Assembly: GCA_012976225.1 (NCBI GenBank)
Contig: JAAVVG010000020.1
Location: 543,432 to 607,431 of the forward strand
Source: Golubevia sp. BC0850
Lineage: Eukaryota; Basidiomycota; Exobasidiomycetes; Golubeviales; Golubeviaceae
Length of the DNA: 64,000 bases
Reading direction: 5' to 3'
In this document: piece by piece, positions 6,319 to 61,907 of the stretch
Layout of the letters: each line of letters opens with the position of its first letter
How positions within the stretch are numbered: position 1 is the first letter of the stretch
Notes under the pieces: model-generated
What the model saw: the letters and a program-made list of their open reading frames with translations, nothing else
The model's database searches: none
What the model was told of the DNA's origin: nothing
Translations under genes and position numbers: made by a program

Positions 6319-7743
6319 TTAACAGTACAAGCCTTTAGCACAACGACTGGGGTCGAACCATTGTTTTGGCATTCCCATAACCCCAAGATCAAGATCAGCA
6401 ATGCCATTGATGCGACGAGCTTGAACATCAGACTCGGAAAGGAGGTCTCTGATATCGAAAGCATCCTGATAGGAGAGAGTTGAAAGGTAGGAGGGTCAGA
6501 GATGGCAAGGAAGAATAATCTCAGGCCGAGATCCTCAGTAAACACAAGTTGTTCTCGATTCGGAACTCACATTGACGGCCTCTTTGTTACCTTTGACGAT
6601 TCTGTTAGCCATGTTCAAGATAGACAAACCCGCTCTGGCTCCAACAATCCATGGGCCGAGGCGTTTCTCAGGTTGAGCATCATCTTCATCGTCTAGACCT
6701 CTTTTCTCGACTGAAGCTAGCTTCGAAGTGAAATCTTTAACTGCATCTGAAGTCATAAATTTATCGGCATCAAAAGTTCCATCCTGGTCAAGAAAATTAG
6801 GAGTTCGGGAAAAGTCAGACGAAGGCAAGGACCTAACGGGTCATCCAATCTACCTTCTTGTGTGACTCACATTGATGGCTTCCTTGGAACTATCGATGAC
6901 TCTACGGGCTGCGTTCAAGAGACCTACTCCCAATCTGGCACCGAGGGCCCAAGCGAGACGCTTCTCTGGGTGGTCTTGTTCGACTTCTAGATCTCTTCTT
7001 TCCACTGAGGCTAGTTTAGAGACGAAGGCGTCAACATCGAAAGGTCCATCCTGGTAGAAAATCAGGGGTTCAAAAAGGAAAATGTCAGGCCAAGACTCTT
7101 TCCCCCATTGGATCAGGCCCAATCAAACGTATTGATACTCACATTGACAGCTTCCTTGTTAGCTTTGACGATTCTGTTAGCAATGTTTAAGATGCTGAGC
7201 CCTGCTCTGGCTCCCACGATCCATGGGCCGAGACGTTTCTCAGGTTGAGCATCGACTTCGTCAGTCAGATCTCTTTTTTCTACTGAGGCTAGCTTAGAGA
7301 CGAAGTCTTGACCCTCATCTGAAGTCAAATAAGTATCGATCTCTGCTTCCTTCATTCCGAGGAACCTCAAAGCGTAACCGGCAAAAAATGGGATGGAGAG
7401 ACGTTTCTCTGGATTGGTCTGTGGAACAAGGGGTCACAGGAAGAAGCGAAGCAGAACGCTAATCAGCATGGTGAAAAGCTAGACATCCTGGCTCTCTGAA
7501 CGTGGTGGGAGGTTACTCACTCCGTAGTCGAATGACCTGGCAATCTGGGCTTGAGCATCGGAAGCGACAGCGTCGCGTCTTTGCTGTGAGAGGTAGCGGA
7601 GGATAACCCAAAGAAGGAATCAGCGAAGAGCTTCTGATGTTCTTACAAGATGAAGGACGCAAACTAACCTGGACTGGGGCAGCAGAGACGGAGACCAAAG
7701 CAGAGACGAAAGCAAGGGGTAAAGCTAATTTAAGGAGTTGCAT
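6319..7743 (-). CDS. Secreted repeat precursor with Kex2-type sites (KEP-like)
   Basis: Six exons (7669-7743, 7521-7583, 7143-7418, 6871-7050, 6571-6783, 6319-6465), all joined in phase 0, give 317 residues. Residues 1-21 are a signal peptide (MQLLKLALPLAFVSALVSVSA). Dibasic sites follow at 27-28, 51-52, 94-95, 107-108, 156-157, 168-169, 225-226, 238-239 and 286-287. The repeat unit is an acidic segment ending KLASV(E)KR/RR, a short acidic spacer ending PEKR, and a hydrophobic/basic segment predicted to be an amphipathic helix. Two of these start LGPWIVGARAGLSILN (residues 109 and 240); a third starts LAWALGARLGVGLLN (170); a shorter relative starts at 53. The last exon ends CAKGLYC. This is the layout of fungal Kex2-processed repeat proteins. 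Activity is unknown; it could be a signal, surface or membrane-active peptide. No peptide-modifying enzyme is visible nearby. Confidence 0.85.
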
Positions 7744-9191
7744 TGTTGAATAGGATTTGAGAAAGGAGGGTTTGAAAGAGAGTGTGTTTAGAAATTAGGA
7801 AATAGAAGCAAAGTTGTGAAAAAGGTAGGCCAGCTACGATTTGGGTTGAAGAAGAATGAGAGAAGAGATAGAGATGAACGTCAAGTTGAGGGAAGAGCAG
7901 CAAAGTGGGAGGTGTTGGGGAGCCTTTTATATACAGCTTCTGAAAAATGGAATTGATGAAACAGAATCAATCAAAAGCATTAGTAAGGGAGGGCATTAGA
8001 CAAATACATGGGGTGGGAAAAAGAGTAGGAAAAGGGGTTGAGAGGGAGGACCTACACTCGATGAGGCGCGTGCCTTAGATCTTGGGTCTGTGACAGAGGT
8101 GGCGGCCTTCTCTAGATAGAGTTAGAGCTGGAACGTTAAGAAGGATCCATTTCCCATGGGCCATCAGCATACATACTATCCCTAAATTCTAAAATTCTGT
8201 CCTCAAAAGATCTTCTATGGGTGTACTTGTATACGTACGCGCCGCTGATCGTGATGAGATTAAAGGAATGTTCTCAAACAGAAATCCCCTCAAAACTCTT
8301 TCCATAACCTAAATGCTAGATCTTGATCACAAATTTCCCTCAGGGGTCTCTGGAACCCATTCCTTGAAATCTTGAAAGTCGGTACATACAAGCATGTAGA
8401 GACCGATCAAAGGATGTACTATACATATCAGGTCTCTCAAGCCAGTGATTGGGTTCATCTTTTGATGGAGGATGTTTGTACAGCTGGTAGGTATTGTCTT
8501 GAGGACAGCTTGGATAGTCATTCGAGTAACGTCGACAAGGGGCATAGCCAAAAAGGGCTTTGGACTTAGTCTCAGTTTCAAGCTTAGATTCTAATTCCTC
8601 GAAAAATGCAACTGAGAGAAAGGGAAAGTTAAAGTAGATGTTTGGTTGGGACTTTGGGGCTTTGGGAGCGCAGACGTCGAAAAAGGCAGCGAAAAGAAGA
8701 AAGACGCTTTCGCTCTTTGTATCTCTCGACTGACTCTTTTTCTTTAAGCGATTTTTCGTTAAACGATTCCATCCTCTGACAGGAGCGAACTAAATTGTGT
8801 AGGTAAAAGTGGAATGCGATGAGATCGCGCGAGGAGAGAAGATCGACGCTCGCCGCCTCTGTCAAAGTGGGGCTCACATAGAATCGAAACCAAAAAAAAA
8901 GAATCTTATGGAACTGATTCTTCCACTATACTAGATATGTACCGAGATTCAGAGTCATTGATGAAAAGTCACTCACTCAACTCCAGCCACCCTTCTTCTG
9001 TTTCGGAAGTGTTCAAATCAAAAAAAAAACCCCCCGATAAGAAAGTCTTTAAAAAAATGCGATTGACGATTTCATGTCTTGGAGTCTTCAAATTGTAGTG
9101 TGTGCAACAAGTCTAATGAATGAATGTTTGGTTTAAAACATGAGACAATTTTTGAAAAAGAGAAAAGAAAACTTCCGAACTTATCACCTTT
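7744..9191. other. Promoter and spacer, no supported gene
   Basis: About 1.4 kb upstream of the secreted precursor. The first 200 bases hold its leader and TATA box. The rest has only short unsupported frames, plus homopolymer A runs near 8888-8900 and 9018-9028. Confidence 0.5.
7923..7933 (-). promoter_or_regulatory. TATA box of the secreted precursor
   Basis: Reads TATATAAAAGG on the minus strand, about 180 bases upstream of the ATG at 7743. It is a near-perfect TATA element, fitting a strongly regulated secreted-protein gene. No transcript start is known. Confidence 0.6.
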
Positions 9192-31347: not shown

Positions 31348-33742
31348 CTACTCCCAACCCTCTTTCCACCAACCTTTCCTAAGTCCATCCAAGATCATAA
31401 TCAATCCTTTATTACTACCCTTCCCTTCTTCTCCCCATCTCTTCTCAACCTCCTTCCCAATCCTCTCCACCTCCTCTCTAGCCAACCTATCCAACCTTCT
31501 CAAGACCTCTCTAGTATAATCAAAACTCCCAGTGATCTCTTTCATGTATTTGACAGCGTAAATTTTGAGAGATAAATCCGTTGGTCTTTGAGATAGGATG
31601 TTGAGGAGTTGTCTGTTTCTGTTTGAGGAAGAGGAGGAGGTTGGGAAGTTGGTTGGACTAGACTTCCTGAAATTTGAGTTGAGGTTGGGATTTTTGATCG
31701 AAGAAGAAATGGAAGTTGAAGAATTCGGATTGCTCATCTCACTAGATCTTATCCCATGAATGATTGGAAAACTAAATTTCCCTTCTGTCAAATCTTCAGC
31801 GAAACCTTTGTTAGTTTCATAATCCTTGTCTTCTAAATTCATATAATCATCTCTGATTTGAAATAAAAGACCTATCAAATTGGCTAGGGGAATCAAATTC
31901 AATGCCTTTGCCTCCCCCTTTCCCTCTCTTTCTTGCTCCTTCCCTTCTGTTTCTTCTTTTTCCTTCCCCCTTCCCTCTTTTCCTTTCGTCTCCTTCCTAT
32001 AACTCCCACTAAATCTACACATCAATCCCAAAGCGATCCTAAACAAACCCCCAGTTTTATTATTAACCATTTCAACATATTCCTCTTCAGTTGGACAGTT
32101 TAAGGAATCTCTCCAGAGTAAATCCATTCCTTGACCTCTGTGTAGATTTAAAAGTTCAGAGGTTACTAGGTTTGATAAGGATGTTCTTTTTTTCCCTCCA
32201 AAATTACTTCCTTCAGAAGTAGAATGCGAAGCAGAGTTGCCGGAAGTAGAAGTCGAAGTCGAAGTCGAAGTATCTTCAGAGTTTCTAAAAGAGGAACTCT
32301 CACCAACTCTACTCTCCAATTCTCCAATCTCTTGAAAAACCTGAAAATAAACGTAGTTCGCACAATTGATGGTTTGAGGGATTCCATAGATTTTATGAGC
32401 TACTGGAATCCCTCTTCGAAGGGTAGAATTGTCTTCTACGTCGTCCATACTGTGAAGTCAAGGCGACGAGGAAGGAAAGGACAGAGAAGAGAAGGGAATT
32501 AGAAAGATGAGAGAAGGGAGGAATGAGGTAGGGAGGCAGAACCAGGGAAGAACAGAAAAGACGAAAAGGTCAGATAAGGAGAGAGGCTTCTACTATACTT
32601 GAAGGTAGAAAGATGAAACTTAGATGAACGTTTTTCCTTCAGAAAACAGAATGTTCCGAATCAGATACACTGTAGCCTTTTCACGTCCTTCGGAGCGAAC
32701 AATAAGGATTGAAAGCTTGGAAAGATTGGCGAGCTTTTTTTCCTTTCTCGTCCCTGGAGGATTCCATTCTTCAGAATGCTTTCTCCCCCTCTCACTCGCT
32801 TCAAACCAGTTATTCAGAAGCTTGAAGATCCAATGCCTTACGAGGAGTCAAAACTTCTTCTATCGGAACCCTCTATCCCTTGATTTTGATCTATTCACTT
32901 TTCAGAAACACGAAACCCTCTACTTGAGATTCTCAACCTCTCAAACTCCATTTTCAAATTCAAATGTACAGCTACTGATCCATCACCCCTCTGCATTTGT
33001 TGAACAGGCAATCAAAGGAGATGGAGTTGGAAGAGGTCTATTTCCATGGCACCGTGGTACCATGGTCTCCAACCTACCTGCACTCCGGTTCTTAAAGAAG
33101 CCAGCTATTGGAGAACCAATTAAGCCAGTCTCAAGATCCTTTCTTCGATCCGCCTCAGAGATTCATTGGGTGAGTCTGAGGACGCAGCGTGGGGAAGAAG
33201 AAACCTATTGACACTGAAAGATCCCTGTCCTCTCTTCCTCTTGCTTGTTCCAAGACATTGAAAGAAGGAGCATTTCTCTTCCTTACGCTGGAAGCAATCT
33301 TCCTAAGTCCACGTCCCAGAAATGAAGCTCTCTCTCCCTTTCTCTCTGCCCTCTCCTCTCGTCTTTGAACATCCAATGCCCCTGGCACCTACTCTAATCT
33401 ACTCTACTGTACTCACAGCAAACTAGCAGTATGCAACATTCTAACGACTCTCTTTATGACTTGCAGTTCTCTCTGATCTACTCTTAACCAATGATTGAAA
33501 GCGTCTATCAATTGAGATCTGACTTCCTTTCCTGGAACTGAAGACAGATAACTATAAGGTTCTAACAAAGATTCCTCTTGATCACTTGGCCATTCAGGTT
33601 GATCACCTAATTTGGTCAACATTGAATCGTACCACGATGGATCACTACCAGAGAATGACGAGGGAGTGCAAGGGGATGAGGCATTGCTAGTTGAGGTTGG
33701 ATTGCAAGTGGAAGCCGGTTGAAGTGGTAGAGTTGGTTGCAT
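31348..33742 (-). CDS. Geranylgeranyl diphosphate synthase
   Basis: Exon 1 (33417-33742) and exon 2 (31348-32449) join in frame to 475 residues. Exon 1 holds [20 protein letters not shown] and [14 protein letters not shown]. Exon 2 opens with the first Asp-rich motif DDVED (residues 111-115), then [18 protein letters not shown], and the second motif QIRDD (about 309). These bind the Mg-diphosphates of the allylic primer and isopentenyl diphosphate. The enzyme makes GGPP for protein prenylation and for carotenoid or other diterpenoid routes; no other terpene gene is nearby. It is longer than usual (~300-350) because of a Ser/Thr-rich loop (~155-195), a Lys/Glu loop (~268-290) and a Ser/Asn loop near residue 340-390. 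The intron is 967 bases, far above local norms. Confidence 0.93.
32624..33211 (+). other. 195-codon open frame inside the GGPPS intron (antisense)
   Basis: An ATG-started frame of 195 codons runs on the plus strand entirely inside the 967-base intron. It is Phe/Ser/Leu-rich and matches no family I know. It may be chance or a nested gene; listed only because the host intron is anomalously long. Confidence 0.2.
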
Positions 33743-45990: not shown

Positions 45991-48437
45991 AATTCTTCCC
46001 TCCAGCTAGCTGCCACTAACGATGTTGACATCCTGCTCCTCCAACACCCTTACCTCCCCCTCCAAGCAGATCCACAACGACGACTTTTCAAGGTCCACCC
46101 ATCCTACAAGTGCTTTTGCCCCATCAACGACTGCGACTGGACCAATGGAACACCCGACGTACTCACCTATGTCAAGAACAGCCTTCAAACAGAATCCCAC
46201 CTTCGATCAGATCTCCTCCCTGGGGGAGAAAGACCTGAGACCAACATCATCGACATCATCATCAACGGAGAAAGTCTTCGTATAGTAAACCTGTACGCTA
46301 GACCGAGAAAACCGGCACCAATCCAAGAGCTGATGGGCATCGAATGGGACGAAACCCCTACGCTGTGGTTTGGAGACTTCAACCTCCATCATGAGATGTG
46401 GGAGTGTCGACCAGCCGATATTTCAGGATCTCCAACCGGGAACGATCTGGCCCGCTCGATAGAAGAGAAGGAATGGAGCCTAGAGATAGAGCCTGGAACC
46501 CCTACCCTTCCTAGAACCTCATCCACCTTGGACCTGGTCTTCTCAAACCCACCTCTGAACATCAACAACAGGGTCCTCAGCTGCGAAGTTGAGCCGAATC
46601 TGTCCACTGGATCGGACCACCAGACATTACTCACGACCATCTCCATACCACAAGGACTAGCACCCCAACAAGCTGGCCTGGATTATCGGAAAACGGACTG
46701 GGAGAAGTTCAAGAACGTCTTGGAACAGGCAAAGACACCTCTGATGGACCTGATCGAAAGGGCGCAAGTGGGGGAAGGAGAAGAGGTCCACCAAAGTCTG
46801 CTCGATCGATGCGCTACCTCATTGAACGAGACTCTCAGCAAGTGCTTGACAGACTCCACTCCTAAGAAGAAGAGAGGGAGGACAAAAGGCTTTGCTTACT
46901 GGGACGACGAGATGGACTCGATCATGAAAGAGAGAAGAGAAAAGGAGAAGCTACTCACCCTGATCCGACAAGAGGAGGGAGACAGGCAAGAGGAGACAGA
47001 ACAACTAATCCTAGAAATAGCAAACCTGAGCAAGAAGGGAAGGAGAGCACTCCAGACGAAGAAGAAGAACTATTTCAGAGATCAGATAGAGAAAGTCAAG
47101 CAACCTTCTGACATCTACAAGATCTCAAAGTGGGGGCAGTCAACAAGACAGCTACCCGTCCCTCCCCTCAGGGACGTCGTCAACCAGAGGGTCTACTCAA
47201 CTCCGGAGGACAAAGCATCTTTTCTCCTGAGAGAGCTCCTCCCACCGATGAGAGAACTCGAAGTGGAACCACCTCCAATTCTACCAGTAGCCCCTGCCAC
47301 TCGCCTGGACCATGCCCCTCTCCAAAAGCACGAAGCCAAAAAGGCCATCTTCTCCCCGGATCCCAACAAGTCCCCTGGAATGGACAACATCTCTTACCAT
47401 GCTCTTCGGAACGCATGGGAAGTGATAGGGGATCACATAGTCCTTTTCCTCTCCACCCTCCTTCGAGTCGGATGGCACCCTCGAGCCTACAGAACAGCCA
47501 TCCTGTGCGCTTTGGCCAAACCAGGAAAGAGAGACCCCTCTCTGCCCCGCTCTTATCGCCTCATCGCCCTTCTCCCCTGCCTGGGGAAAGTCCTGGAGAG
47601 AATTGTAGCCGCAAGACTCACCCACTTTGCAATCAAGAAGAACCTCGTCCCACCGGAGCAATTTGGAGGGATGCCGGGTAGAAGCACCACCGACGCAGTC
47701 CACACCCTGGTCCACGACATCCACGCTGGATGGTATTCGGAAAAAAGGAGAGTGACCTCAGCGCTAGCCTTTGACGTCCAAGGCGCATTTGATTCTGTCC
47801 ATCCGGATCGGCTCACCAAGCTCCTCGACACACACAACCTCCCTCTGGCATTGGTGAAGTGGGTCAAGGCATTTCTGTCGGAAAGGAAAGCGGCAGTCAG
47901 GCTAGACCACTTCACAGGAAAGTTGGAACCAGTCTCCTCTGGAATCCCCCAAGGCTCGCCAGTCTCTCCCATCCTCTTCCTCCTGTTTTCAGCCCCACTA
48001 TTCGGCCTGATCAACGAGAGAGCAAGGAGAGACCAGGAAGGAGGCCCTCCCACAAGAAGATCCCTGCGAGTCCTGGCATTTGTCGATGACGGCTTGATCT
48101 ACTGCTCCACTCAAATCAACCAAACCAACCCGGACGAAGCTGCTCGAACCAACAACCGTCACCTGGAAGAAGCCTATCACACCCTCTTGGAGTTTGCCAA
48201 CAGCAACGGCCTCAACTTCGATCCTAAGAAAAAGGAGCTGATCCACTTTCCCTCCTCCTGGCATCAGCATCACCCTTTCGACCATCCATCTCCAGGACGG
48301 AGCGGTAGAACCGTGTCCCATGATTCAAGCGATCCGATGGCTCGGAATCTGGCTCGATCCAGCCTTGACTTTCATCCAACATGTCGCAAAGATGGCTCAT
48401 AGCGCAACAAGAGTCGTCTTCTCCATGAAGATGCTGT
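45991..48437 (+). pseudogene. LINE endonuclease/reverse transcriptase ORF, truncated and frameshifted
   Basis: The frame is open from just after the TAG at 45988-45990. It enters the endonuclease/exonuclease/phosphatase fold at TNDVDILLLQ, continues with LWFGDFNLHHEMWE and GSDHQTLL, then the reverse transcriptase: FDVQGAFDSVHPDRL, GIPQGSPVSPILFLLFSAPL and the active-site box FVDD (in place of the common YADD, a known LINE variant). At about 48250 the frame shifts by one base: the ATG-started frame runs to a stop at 48402, while the family-like continuation (IRWLGIWLDPALTF) is in another frame up to 48437. The upstream half of the endonuclease, any ORF1, and the C-terminus are missing, so this copy is dead. 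Confidence 0.85.
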
Positions 48438-56841: not shown

Positions 56842-59800
56842 TTAAGCTTGATGTTTGGAGGGTCTTGATGGATTGCTTTGTTCGAAGTGAAGTACAGCTT
56901 CATCATCGTCATCGAAGTCATCAGCAGAGACCCAAGAGTTTTCTGTGGAGTCATAGTCTTTCCAGGAAACAAAGTATTGAAGTTTCTTGTGTCGAAGTCT
57001 TGAGTCTAGAATCTCTTGAATCTCGAAGTGTTCTTCTCCGTCAATGATGTCGGGTGGTGGTGGTGGTGGAAGCTGTCTGGAAGGGAAAGTGTTTGAGATC
57101 CATGGCTCAAGAAGAGAGACGTGAAAGGTGTTGTGGATTTTCATTTGAGGAGGTAAATCAAGCTGATAAGCTACTGAGATAACTTGCTTGATCACTTTGA
57201 AGGGCCCAAGAAAGCGATTGTCTAGCTTCTGGGTGGGTCTTTGAGAAGGAAGGTTTTTGCTTGATAATTTGACTAGTTGTCCAACTTTAAAGACAACAGA
57301 CTTGCGATGGCGGTTGGCGTTTTCTGTGTAGCGATGTTGCGCATTTTTCAATGTTTCTTTTGCAATAGCTTGACTGTGTTGAAGGGACTCAATAAGTTTT
57401 GAGGCAGCAGGGACTGGTGAGTCCATAATCGTGAGATCGGATCTTGGATGGAAGCCATGAAGCAAAAAGAAAGGAGATTGCTTTGTGGAAGAACTTTGAG
57501 AGTTGTTGTACGCGAACTCTGCTAGGGGGAGCAGTTTTGCCCAATTGTCTTGAAGGTGGGTAGTGTACACTCGAAGATACTGCTCTAAGATTTGATTGAT
57601 CCGTTCCGTTTGACCATTTGTCTGGGGATGGAAAGCTGTTGACAGAAGAGGTTGGATCTGGGCCTGTCTTTGAACTTCTTTCCAAAATTGAGCTGTGAAT
57701 GTGGAGCCTCGGTCCGAGACAATGGTGTCTGGAAGTCCATGAAGCTTGAGGAGATTGTTGATGAATTGTTGAGCTAGATGCATTGCAGTGTCTGAGGTGG
57801 ATGCTGGAACAAAGTGTGCCATTTTGGAAAATCTGTCAAGGAAAACCAAGATGGCATCAAAACCTTCACTTTTGGGAAGGGCCACTATATGGTCCATCGA
57901 CATGGAAGACCATGGTCTATCTGGAATGGGTAGTGGCTGTAGAAGACCATTTGGCTTGTGATGGTGATTTTTGGTGCGTTGGCATCTTGGACATTGGCTG
58001 ACATACTTTCCAACATCCTTTGACATTCCAGGCCAGGTGTAAGAGCGAGAGAGAAGCTCTACTAGTTTGTCTCGTCCAGGATGTCCAGCAAGGTGGCTGT
58101 CATGTGCTTGTTCTAAGATCTTGGTGCGAACAGCTTCGTTTTCTGGGACACAAAGTTGGTGTTGATGGAATAAGAGACCAGACTGGACGCTGTATTCTTT
58201 TGGTAGAGGGTTCTGAATGATTGACTGGAGTTGTGGATCTTGAGTGGTGGCTTGAAGAAGTTGGTCTTGAAGATTCAGATGGTCACGACTTGCCTGAGTA
58301 GAGGAGATCGATACATGTTTGTCATTTTCCAGTATTTGTAGTGGCTTGAGAACTTGTCTTGCTTCTTCTCTTATGGCTCGCCCCTCTTCTAAGAGATTGG
58401 AGGGGCGGGATAAGGCATCAGCCTTGTTGTTGAGGTGGCCAGGTCTGTAGATGAGGTTAAATTGATAGTTGCTCAGGGAGTTGTGGCATCGCTGGTGACG
58501 GAGAGTAAGGTGTTTTTGAGGTTGAAGGAAATAAGTGAGGTTCTTGTGAACTGTGTAGATGTTGAAAGGGACGCTTAAGGGTTGAAGATAGTGTCGCCAA
58601 TGTTCCAGGGACTTAACAATTGCAAGTAGCTCCTTGTCGCCTATTGAATAGTTAACTTCGGCAGGCACCATGGAGCGTGAATAGAACGCCACTGGATGCA
58701 TTTTCCTAGAGGTTGGGTCACGTTGGCTTAAGATGGCAGAGATTGCATAGTTGGACGCATCTGTCTCTACAATGGTTTCTCGATCTTGGTGGTAATGTTG
58801 GAGGATTGGGGCCGAAGTGAAGCATTGCTTAAGGTGTTCAAAAGCTTTGGTTGCCTTTGTATCGAAGTTGAATGTTACCCCTTTTCTGAGTAGATGAGTC
58901 ATAGGTTGAATGGTTCTGGAATTGCCAGTGATGAAGCGGCGATAGAAGTTGGCAAAGCCTAGGAAAGCTTGGAGTTTTGTGATGTTTGTAGGGGTTGGCC
59001 AGGAAGTAACGGCTTTGACCTTATCTTGAGACATTGAGACACCAGAAGGTGAGATGATGTAGCGAAGGTATTCAGTGGAGGTGCAGTGGAAGTCGCATTT
59101 TTCCGCTTTACAGTAGAGTTTATTATCCATAAGACGTTGAAGGACCTCTGAAACATGTTGTTGATGTTCTTCTTTATTGTCAGAGAAGATGAGGATATCA
59201 TCAAGGTAAACCAAGACAGTGACATCCAGGAGGTCTTGAAAGATATGATTCATTAGGGCTTGAAAAGTTGCAGGTGCGTTGGTGAGGCCAAATGGCATCA
59301 CTAGGGACTCGAAGTGGCCATAGCGTGTGCGGAAAGCTGTTTTCCATTCATCTCCTTTCTTTATGCGAACCAGGTTATATGCTCCACGAAGATCCAGTTT
59401 AGTGAATATTTTGGCGTGGCGAATCCTGTCCAAGTAGTCAGAGATGAGTGGTAAGGCAAGTCGATTCTTCTTTGTGATTGCATTAAGGCCTCGATAGTCC
59501 ACGCAGAGTCGGAGTTCTCCAGATTTCTTTTTTACAAACAGGACTGGCGCGCCGGCAGAAGATTTTGAGGCACGGATGAATCCTTTGTTCAGGTTTTCTT
59601 TGATGAAGTCTCGTAGGGCGGCCAATTCTGGCTCTGATAGATTGTAAAGTCGTCCAAAAGGTGGATTGGTATTGGCTTCGAGGTCGATACTGTGATCGTG
59701 GTTTGCATGTTGAGGGAGCTTGTCTGCAAGTGTCTTCGAGAAAGCTCCCAGGTACTTGTGGTATTCTTGAGGCAGGGATTCTTTGATGCTCTGGAGGTAC

Positions 59801-60822
59801 TCTGGTGGGTCTGGGATTGAATCTGGAAGGTGAGCTACACCAGAAGATGCAGGTTGCGCAACTGGTCTGCGAGGTTGCTCGATTGTCCCAACAGATGGTA
59901 GCGTTTCTTCAGAGGTAGTGACCCATCCGTAAGAGCTGCAATCATTGAGTAGGTAAGCCATATGGGGGCCCGATACTAGGCTTACTTGGAAATTTAGCTT
60001 TATTGGGGTAGTTACTCTCACTTTGCTTGTTTCTGCAGATTTTTGAAAAGGGTTCGTGACTACAGGAGCTGGTAGTGGTACTGTTATTTGGGCTTGATGT
60101 GATGCTAAGGTACTCAGAGAAGGGTTTGGTCTCAAAGCATTCTTGTGACTAGAGGGGTTCTTGTGACTTGAGGGGTTCTTGGAACTTGAGGACTTGAATG
60201 GGACTTCAGGTGGTGTTTGACTTGATCTTTGAAAAGCGAGGTGTGGGAGCATAGTATTCATGGCATGTGTGACTGAGGTTTCTTGAGGAGCAATGGTTCT
60301 TGTTTCTTGAGAGTTGACAATTTTAGGTTGCTGGCTCTTAGCTGCCAGTCCTATTGCAAGTGGCATGGCACTGACTGCGGTTCTAGAAGTTTGGCAGGAG
60401 GTGTGGCAAAAGGTAGAGTTGAAGGAAAGGGAATTTGTGCGCCAATTGATGTCTAGATTGTGTTTCTTTAACCAAGGGGTGCCGAGAATGAGTTTCAGGT
60501 GATCTAGTTCAACAACAAAGAGAGAATGAACCTCTTTGTGTTCCTTGATCTTGAGTGTAAGGGTGGCATAGTGAGTGACTGGGGAGGCAAATGGAGTTCC
60601 ATTTGCTGTGTAGAATTGGCAAGGTTTTGAAAGTGGAAAAATGGGTAGGTGATTTGAAAGGACCAGATCTTTATGGATCAAGTCGACTTCTGCACCACCA
60701 TCAACAAGTGCGTGGCTAGAGACGTTGATATTTTGATGTTGAAGTTGGCAAGGTAGGAAGATTCGGTCCATAGAGGTGGGTTCTAGAGCGAGGGATTGGG
60801 ATTGGATAGGGGAGGCTTTCAA
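56842..60822 (-). CDS. Gypsy Pol polyprotein with chromodomain
   Basis: About 1326 residues without a stop. In order: an aspartic-protease segment ([16 protein letters not shown], active-site DGG); reverse transcriptase ([48 protein letters not shown] with the YLDD box); RNase H ([15 protein letters not shown]); integrase with zinc-binding HHCC ([15 protein letters not shown]...CPRCQRTK) and the DDE core ([42 protein letters not shown]); and a C-terminal chromodomain ([27 protein letters not shown]). This order defines the chromovirus clade. It lies in the -1 frame relative to Gag with a ~50-base overlap, consistent with frameshifted translation. Confidence 0.95.
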
Positions 60823-60830
60823 AGTTTGAC

Positions 60831-61907
60831 TCAGGCGCTCTCCTGGCTTTCCTGGTCTTTGAGAAAATCCGGATTGCTAGACTTGATGTCATACACTTCG
60901 GTTTTGAAGAAGCGTCGTTTACTTGCAGGGCAATTGGCTGCCATATGTCCCTTTGCACCACAGTATAGGCAGAGGTTTAGTTGCCTTCTGCGTTGTTTCT
61001 CTTCTGTGGTCAGTGGTCCGCGACGAGTAGTCTTGGCTAGGGTGTCGATATCCATAGGAGTATAGGAAGTGTTGGGTCCAAGTTGAGGCTGTACCGGCTT
61101 GGGGTTCCAAGTGTTGTTGCCTGTGTTCTTGTCCCAGGGAGTAGGAGCATTGGAAGGGTGTACGGTTGAGATGCGATTGTTCTGAGGTTGTCTTGATCCG
61201 ATGTTGGTCATTTGGTCCTCAATGTACTCGGCTTGTTGCATGAGAGAGGCCAAGTTGTCAGACTTAAAGTTGATTAATGCCATACGAATGTGGTTCTTGA
61301 GGCCCTGTTGGAAATGTTCACTTTGAATGGACTCTGGTAAGGAGTCGGGCAAACGTCCCAAGAGGCTGCGAAACTCTCTGACATAGTTGTGGACAGAGGT
61401 GCTCTGGCGGAGCTGTATCCATTCTTGGTAGATGAGACGATTGTTTTCAGGATTTCCAAATTGCTTGATGAACTCTTTCTTGAAAGCAGCCCAGTCTCTC
61501 ATCCATTCAGGTGATTGGTTCTTATCTACAAGATCAAGCTGCTGAGCTAACCATACTTGCGCTGGGGAGTTGGTAGTTAGGAAAGTATAGGTCATGTTGA
61601 TGCAAGTAGGCAGATCCACGGTCCCAGAACTTGTGTGGAAGTAGACCTCTAATGAGCGTAGAAAGTTCTCCGTTTCGGCTTGGGATCTGGCATAACCAGC
61701 AAACTTGTCAGGCATGGCACCTTTGGGTGTGTTAGGGAGCCTTGTCCCATAGGGTTCTTGTTTGTCTTGCTTGGCTAGTGTTTGAGCTTGATGATCCTGT
61801 ACTTGACGTTGGATTTCTTGAAAGCCTGTGAGCAAGCTATTGTTGTTCTAATCTATGACTTGTTGCAGGAGTTGAGCCAACTCTGGGACATTGGTGTTTT
61901 CGGACAT
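60831..61907 (-). pseudogene. Gypsy Gag with an in-frame stop near the start
   Basis: The frame starts at ATG 61907 (MSENTNVPELAQLLQQVID) and meets TAG at 61848-61850, after 19 codons. It then continues open for another ~338 codons to 60831. The body has a retrotransposon capsid domain (TYTFLTTNSPAQVWLAQQ; FKKEFIKQFGNPENNRLIYQ) and one CCHC zinc knuckle (CLYCGAKGHMAANCP) that packages RNA. The stop is a single-base change from CAG. Either the copy is disabled, translation restarts downstream, or the codon is read through. Confidence 0.85.

Follow-up and report, generated by a model that had tools for sequence, protein, structure and literature searches.

A Candidate Family of Kex2-Processed Repeat Proteins With Diversified Hydrophobic Cores and a Conserved Acidic Tail in Golubevia sp. 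BC0850

Introduction

Kex2-processed repeat proteins (KEPs) have been defined in two surveys by a signal peptide and a minimum of three repeats, 8 to 100 amino acids long, located between Kex2 sites (Le Marquer 2019, PMC6339444; Umemura 2020, PMC7329392), and the former reports that yeast-like basidiomycetes have longer Kex2 peptides than other Dikarya. Long amphipathic Kex2 products have been described. Rep1 is cut into ten amphipathic Kex2 peptides of 35–53 amino acids, which form amyloid-like fibrils, and the repeats of Hum3 comprise 31–36 amino acids (PMC4617103); candidalysin of Candida is a long amphipathic Kex2 product of 31 amino acids (PMC5784256).

Here we analyze a precursor gene, denoted g1, and its paralogs in the yeast Golubevia sp. 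BC0850 (Exobasidiomycetes). The gene lies in a stretch of 64,000 nucleotides, hereinafter the window. Its initial annotation implied that long helix-like cores set the encoded protein apart from all known systems; given Rep1, Hum3, and candidalysin, this contrast is not supported.

Results

Structure of the precursor gene

The coding region of g1 (6319..7743, minus strand, as are all its exons and the features below) consists of six exons, which join in frame to yield 317 residues and a stop codon; all five introns are of the GT–AG type, in phase 0, and 85–105 nt long. Exon 1 (7669..7743) encodes the putative signal peptide MQLLKLALPLAFVSALVSVSA and the start of the mature part, beginning with AP; a similar signal exon is present in three other genes of the family. 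The 21 N-terminal residues follow the basic–hydrophobic–polar order and end in VSA, which, judged by eye, supports the signal peptide proposed in the initial annotation, and the cleavage point was placed by the −3/−1 rule. Exon 2 (7521..7583) covers most of the acidic propiece past the first RR (residues 27–28). Exon 3 (7143..7418) contains PEKR, the first core with its tail, an acidic linker, and the second core; exon 4 (6871..7050), the tail of the second module, an acidic linker, and the third core; exon 5 (6571..6783), the tail of the third module, an acidic linker, and the fourth core; and exon 6 (6319..6465), the last tail, the final RR, and the C-terminal piece.

A separate gene model based on hexamers and splice sites, trained on nine long ORFs from the window, recovered exons 1–5 exactly, but each of its three best chains gave exon 6 a different acceptor and reading frame. 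Support for exon 6 as first read comes from the paralog frames rather than from the ab initio model: it resembles the open frames ending two paralogs (..SEVQPRYTDFNANLDLLG.. and ..ASEIQARNTNVHADIDLLG..). The later gene models of paralogs provide no independent support for this exon, because their ends were fixed by hand. The previously proposed structure of six exons and 317 residues is thus upheld by the in-frame GT–AG joins, by the gene model for exons 1–5, and by the paralog frames for exon 6.

The 5′ leader and exon 1 (7664..7892, minus strand) are 98–100% identical to a tract of paralog g2 (C12:538463-538691). The identity falls sharply at the border of intron 1, and both intron 1 and the sequence upstream of approximately −150 are at the background level, which looks like recent gene conversion or an exchange of 5′ ends.

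Elsewhere in the window, two long ORFs resemble, by eye, a LINE-type reverse transcriptase (45991-48402, plus strand) and a gypsy-type polyprotein (56842-60876, minus strand).

Dibasic sites and modules of g1

The mature part of g1 contains ten KR/RR sites, one more than initially annotated, with 3.17 expected from shuffles of the mature sequence (P = 0.0002). The dipeptides behind the six KR are LS, DL, LG, LA, GL, and LG, and those behind the four RR are DA, DL, VI, and IN. The four related modules noted initially were indeed seen as four PEKR sites, each followed by a hydrophobic segment, with LGPWIVGARAGLSILN present twice; at the DNA level, a repeat of 202 nt spanning parts of exons 3 and 5 has 80% identity. 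The cores are LSIPFFAGYALRFLGM (core 1, residues 53–68, 7353..7400), LGPWIVGARAGLSILNIANRIVKAN (core 2, residues 109–133, 7158..7232), LAWALGARLGVGLLNAARRVIDSS (core 3, residues 170–193, 6886..6957), and LGPWIVGARAGLSILNMANRIVKGN (core 4, residues 240–264, 6586..6660). Core 3, that is, the third module, has an extra internal RR, whose use is doubtful, paralog g2 having QR at this place. The conserved acidic tail KEAEIDTYLTSDEGQDFVSKLASVEKR (7272..7352) represents the family motif.

The initial annotation had delimited a hydrophobic/basic peptide of about 30 residues. There is, however, no dibasic site at the C-terminal end of this segment, which continues into the acidic tail, and hence the predicted unit is the core together with the tail, comprising 41–47 amino acids with a net charge between −4 and 0. 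Among the predicted pieces of g1 are two-part peptides with lengths of 41, 47, and 46 residues (net charge −4, 0, and −1, respectively), as well as acidic linkers of 10–11 residues excluding their KR.

The gene family in the genome

Searching this genome (25,771,031 bases in 64 contigs; GC content 44.96% as calculated over the window and the extracted loci, which overlap one another) at the DNA and protein levels yielded two paralogs of g1, namely, g2 (C12:538.6-539.8k), located on the opposite strand about 10 kb from g1 and 4 kb before the start of the window, and g3 (C12:371k). In a further gene of the family, at the L010/L046 locus (C8:632-634k), the signal exon is 95% alike, the cores are quite different (LGGFAGAFSLALPLFASFITKNK), and the units are arranged in tandem.

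The family motif, KEAxDxFLxSDEGKxFVSKLASxExRD, was derived from 18 hand-chosen examples. A degenerate DNA pattern for its middle portion, G[KQ][DEA]F[VA]SK, had 22 matches across the genome of 25.8 Mb, versus one when reversed. Grouped by hand, these places form 17 loci, 16 of which have, by eye, a frame for a signal peptide; none was seen by eye at the remaining locus, C6:313k. Protein searches added C7:414k, C61:878k (with one in-frame TAG), and C17:68k, the latter found with E 0.02, yet carrying the motif in its frame; C61:170k, C7:445k, C61:145k, and C44:659k are weaker candidates. Overall, 50 hit positions, weak ones included, collapsed into 23 clusters when merged within 3 kb, and the family would comprise about twenty genes. 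The suggestion of a possibly new family of secreted peptides thus gains support, the family being larger than had been suggested (17 motif loci).

Gene models of the paralogs were made with hand-chosen ends and, for most loci, hand-chosen end motifs as well. The set of 13 precursor models includes g1 and 12 out of 15 paralog models, as L036, L037, and L046 were excluded as incomplete or implausible. The open frames of L033, L045, L056, L057, and L061 stop at FDLLG, and those of L040, L041, and L077, at LKLLGF.

Architecture of the core–tail unit

The unit of the family is a variable hydrophobic core, followed by KEA and the conserved acidic tail. We compared 19 modules, collected with a pattern that requires KR/RR before the core and takes only the first of the four g1 modules, with one L046 module added by hand. 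The cores in these modules comprise 16–34 residues with a mean charge of +0.9 and a pairwise identity of 0.37, and the tails have a mean charge of −2.3 and a pairwise identity of 0.60. None of the 19 modules has a dibasic site between the core and the tail. In a count based on a separate pattern, which missed some modules, the tail is followed by a dibasic site in seven out of 25 modules, all from g1–g3, L040, and L041, and by a single R in the other 18.

The enrichment of KR/RR in g1 is accompanied by four sites in g3 (1.39 expected, P 0.035) and by four in g2 (1.94 expected, P 0.11, not significant). Among the 13 precursor models, L035 lacks KR/RR altogether, and the GKVDYG/GKADYG segments in L033, L034, and L045 come after a single R; because of this, predicted Kex2 cutting ahead of the core is common, but not universal. 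The genome has a proprotein-convertase P-domain locus with one P_proprotein match over the cut-off (positions 1–62 of 86 in the profile), where one TGA crosses the frame.

An uncut cell-wall or multipass membrane protein, with the KR pairs being topological or structural features, would accommodate L035, which has the tail motif and an N-terminus of the signal type in spite of lacking dibasic sites, and also the cores of L040, L041, and L046, whose hydropathy reaches 1.8–2.0 over 19 residues. On the other hand, it is only 0.95–1.30 in the three cores of g1–g3 that were measured (the first ones of g1 and g3, and one of g2), the LGPW cores, outside this measurement, contain Arg, Lys, and Asn, and KR/RR are three-fold enriched in g1; we therefore consider this explanation unlikely.

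Selection on the peptides

Substitution rates were estimated by the Nei–Gojobori method, with few sites in each comparison. Within g1, dN/dS is 0.08/0.75 for the two LGPW cores and 0.11/1.49 for the spacers of the two LGPW copies; for the two repeats inside g2, it is 0.04/1.08. Between the genes, the values are 0.14/1.18 for core 3 of g1 and a g2 core, 0.22/1.49 for one g1 core and that of g3, and 0.13/0.74 for the first peptides of g1 and g3. In exon 2, g1 and g3 have zero synonymous changes (14 sites), which may be due to gene conversion. The low dN/dS between the g1 repeats means that the coding sequence is under purifying selection, and, as far as few sites can tell, the constraint appears to cover the peptides rather than the cut sites alone. 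We regard g1 as a real gene under constraint, belonging to an apparently new family whose kind, that of the Kex2-processed repeat proteins, is known.

Near-identical, constrained copies within g1 and g2 would also be expected of secreted signaling peptides, self-sensing or pheromone-like, present in several copies per precursor, and the alpha-factor precursors share this layout (PMC6339444). However, the g1 peptides are long and hydrophobic, and about twenty paralogs have divergent cores, so that a signaling role seems very unlikely. The alpha-factor reading proper, by analogy with ascomycete precursors, was rejected, as STE13-type XA/XP dipeptides do not recur behind the sites; g1 has a single DA, which follows the first RR, and a single LA, which follows a KR.

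Helical periodicity of the cores

In all six LGPW/LVPW/LAW/LWAL-type cores of g1–g3, the hydrophobic period is 95–105 degrees (105 degrees in core 2 of g1), that is, helical, not strand-like. Calculated for entire cores, the hydrophobic moment at 100 degrees has marginal significance (P 0.03–0.10 for these six homologous cores). The best moment over 18 residues amounts to 0.57–0.63 in the five Kex2 fragments starting with LGPW, LVPW, or LWAL (shuffle P 0.018–0.036 each, uncorrected, the sequences being homologous), and eight out of 65 fragments of at least 18 residues have P < 0.05, compared with approximately three expected by chance. Core 1 of g1 and the tested Gly/Ala-rich cores are not amphipathic. 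The helix-like nature ascribed to the core by the initial annotation is hence retained for g1–g3 as regards periodicity, at a modest level of significance.

Searches for relatives

For the window protein, no relative was found at E ≤ 0.01 among the 8000 candidates scored, and searches of Pfam, NCBIfam, and PDB yielded nothing above the cut-off, nor did a Pfam search with three further members. The Pfam hits, with a best E of 0.012 for g1 and with E 9e-4 for g2 (TRAPP and FlgM), were below the curated cut-offs and were taken as chance matches. Scanning viral_contigs with exon 3 produced 19 pattern hits, none of them a relative. As a control, the geranylgeranyl/farnesyl diphosphate synthase-like gene of the window (31348-32457, minus strand), encoding a geranylgeranyl diphosphate synthase-like protein, had 5153 relatives at E ≤ 0.001 among 8000 candidates, and its best named relatives among the 120 listed came from Tilletia (with no more than 52% identity), Pseudozyma, and Ustilago; the database thus includes smut fungi, and the genome under study can most likely be assigned to Ustilaginomycotina.

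With a hand-corrected splice model of L034, a member more typical of the family, as a query, two relatives were retrieved at E ≤ 1. Both are metagenome proteins with 98–99% identity to the frames of L033 and L034 read without splicing, and they therefore originate from the same species or one very close to it. Compared with its 99% identical metagenome copy P0121, which has one C-terminal unit of 126 residues, L033 (3644-4840) has two, which points to variation in the number of repeats. To be retrieved by the protein search, a relative has to share five-letter words with the query and be of similar length, and poor splicing would hide it; within these bounds, the family is likely restricted to the lineage. 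No report of it was found in the literature searched, the motif words included (supplementary lists of KEPs were outside the scope of this search). The statement that the protein belongs to no recognised family is consistent with the lack of a named match in the protein database, Pfam, NCBIfam, and PDB.

These data bear on the possibility that the peptides self-assemble on the cell or hyphal surface and alter its wettability and attachment, similar to Rep1 of Ustilago maydis. The control gene most likely places the yeast in the same subphylum as U. maydis, and the length of the amphipathic Rep1 peptides (PMC4617103) corresponds to the size expected for the g1 products. In contrast to the amyloid-like fibrils described there, all six cores of the LGPW/LVPW/LAW/LWAL type in g1–g3 have a helical period. 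L034, in turn, had no named fungal match at E ≤ 1 within the word, length, and 8000-candidate limits of the search, an indirect comparison in that the database includes U. maydis, the presence of Rep1 itself being unconfirmed. A repellent-like coat is thus possible, though rather doubtful.

Discussion

In our view, the most likely role of the peptides is activity at membranes or interfaces, the present data fitting a coat and an antagonist role alike. The g1 product would be secreted as a polyprotein and, in transit through the Golgi, would be cut by a Kex2-type protease after PEKR and at other KR/RR. The main products would be two-part peptides of about 40–50 residues, comprising a hydrophobic or amphipathic helical core, KEA, and the conserved acidic tail. 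The core may then bind membranes or interfaces, and the acidic tail, together with the linkers, may maintain the solubility of the peptide and prevent it from harming the cell that makes it. Approximately twenty precursors with diversified cores would probably be used against competitors at the surface of this epiphytic, mildew-antagonist yeast. We hold this scheme of a secreted polyprotein giving rise to membrane- or interface-active two-part peptides, probably with an antagonistic function, tentatively, with somewhat less than even confidence. A point against it is the net charge of the two-part peptides, which is neutral or acidic, whereas lytic peptides of the cationic type are positively charged.

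Three Golubevia isolates reduce wheat powdery mildew (PMC7272565). For antagonists of the Tilletiopsis type, however, the apparent active principle is named as a fatty acid ester rather than a peptide (PMC6883903), which argues against a main role for peptides. A more elaborate version, in which the lineage-restricted family of about twenty precursors would constitute a diversified antagonistic arsenal of membrane-active cores, each with its own acidic restraint tail, and the single-R site behind the tail would serve as a second, regulated cut, seems to us rather unlikely.

If the products are membrane-active, they would provide a testable candidate mechanism for the suppression of powdery mildew by Golubevia-type yeasts. 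Roles in a surface coat or in signaling would also be of interest, as counterparts of Rep1. Furthermore, genes with a constant tail and differing cores could be overlooked in surveys of Kex2 peptides that look for nearly identical repeats inside a single protein.

Comparison with known systems

The layout of Kex2-processed repeat proteins recognized in the initial annotation is borne out, as g1 fits both published definitions by eye. In addition to the signal peptide, it has at least three repeated stretches between KR/RR, all under 100 amino acids, namely, three linkers of 12–13 amino acids including KR (DLTDEVDAQPEKR, DLEVEQDHPEKR, and GLDDEDDAQPEKR) and three similar LGPW/LAW cores. It differs from KEPs in that the cores of the family often differ within one precursor, the conserved part being the acidic tail, and in that a single R often takes the place of a dibasic site behind the tail; among the modelled members, one has no dibasic site.

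Dikaritins (of the ustiloxin and phomopsin type) share the layout of a Kex2 polyprotein, but their cores are short and cyclised. This reading was rejected on length only, the cores being too long. No match to UstYa (DUF3328), an enzyme expected to be encoded close to a dikaritin precursor, was found in the whole genome, and the control genomes were equally silent.

Rep1 and Hum3 of Ustilago maydis are similar in coming from the same subphylum and in yielding amphipathic Kex2 peptides of comparable length. The Rep1 peptides differ in their fibrils, the cores of g1–g3 looking helical, and Hum3 differs in its hydrophobin domain, for which the window protein has no Pfam match. Ece1 of Candida albicans, the precursor of candidalysin, is also a Kex2 polyprotein with a hydrophobic peptide among others. 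However, candidalysin is a single peptide of 31 amino acids cut on both sides (PMC5784256), whereas the g1 core, present in several related copies with no dibasic site behind it, would stay joined to the acidic tail. This comparison concerns the layout, and the database searches with the window protein and L034 gave no candidalysin hit within their limits.

The kind is known, that of long amphipathic Kex2 peptides, and the family looks new; its unusual feature, as predicted from the sequences of about twenty genes, is that a hydrophobic core which has diversified is joined to an acidic tail which is conserved.
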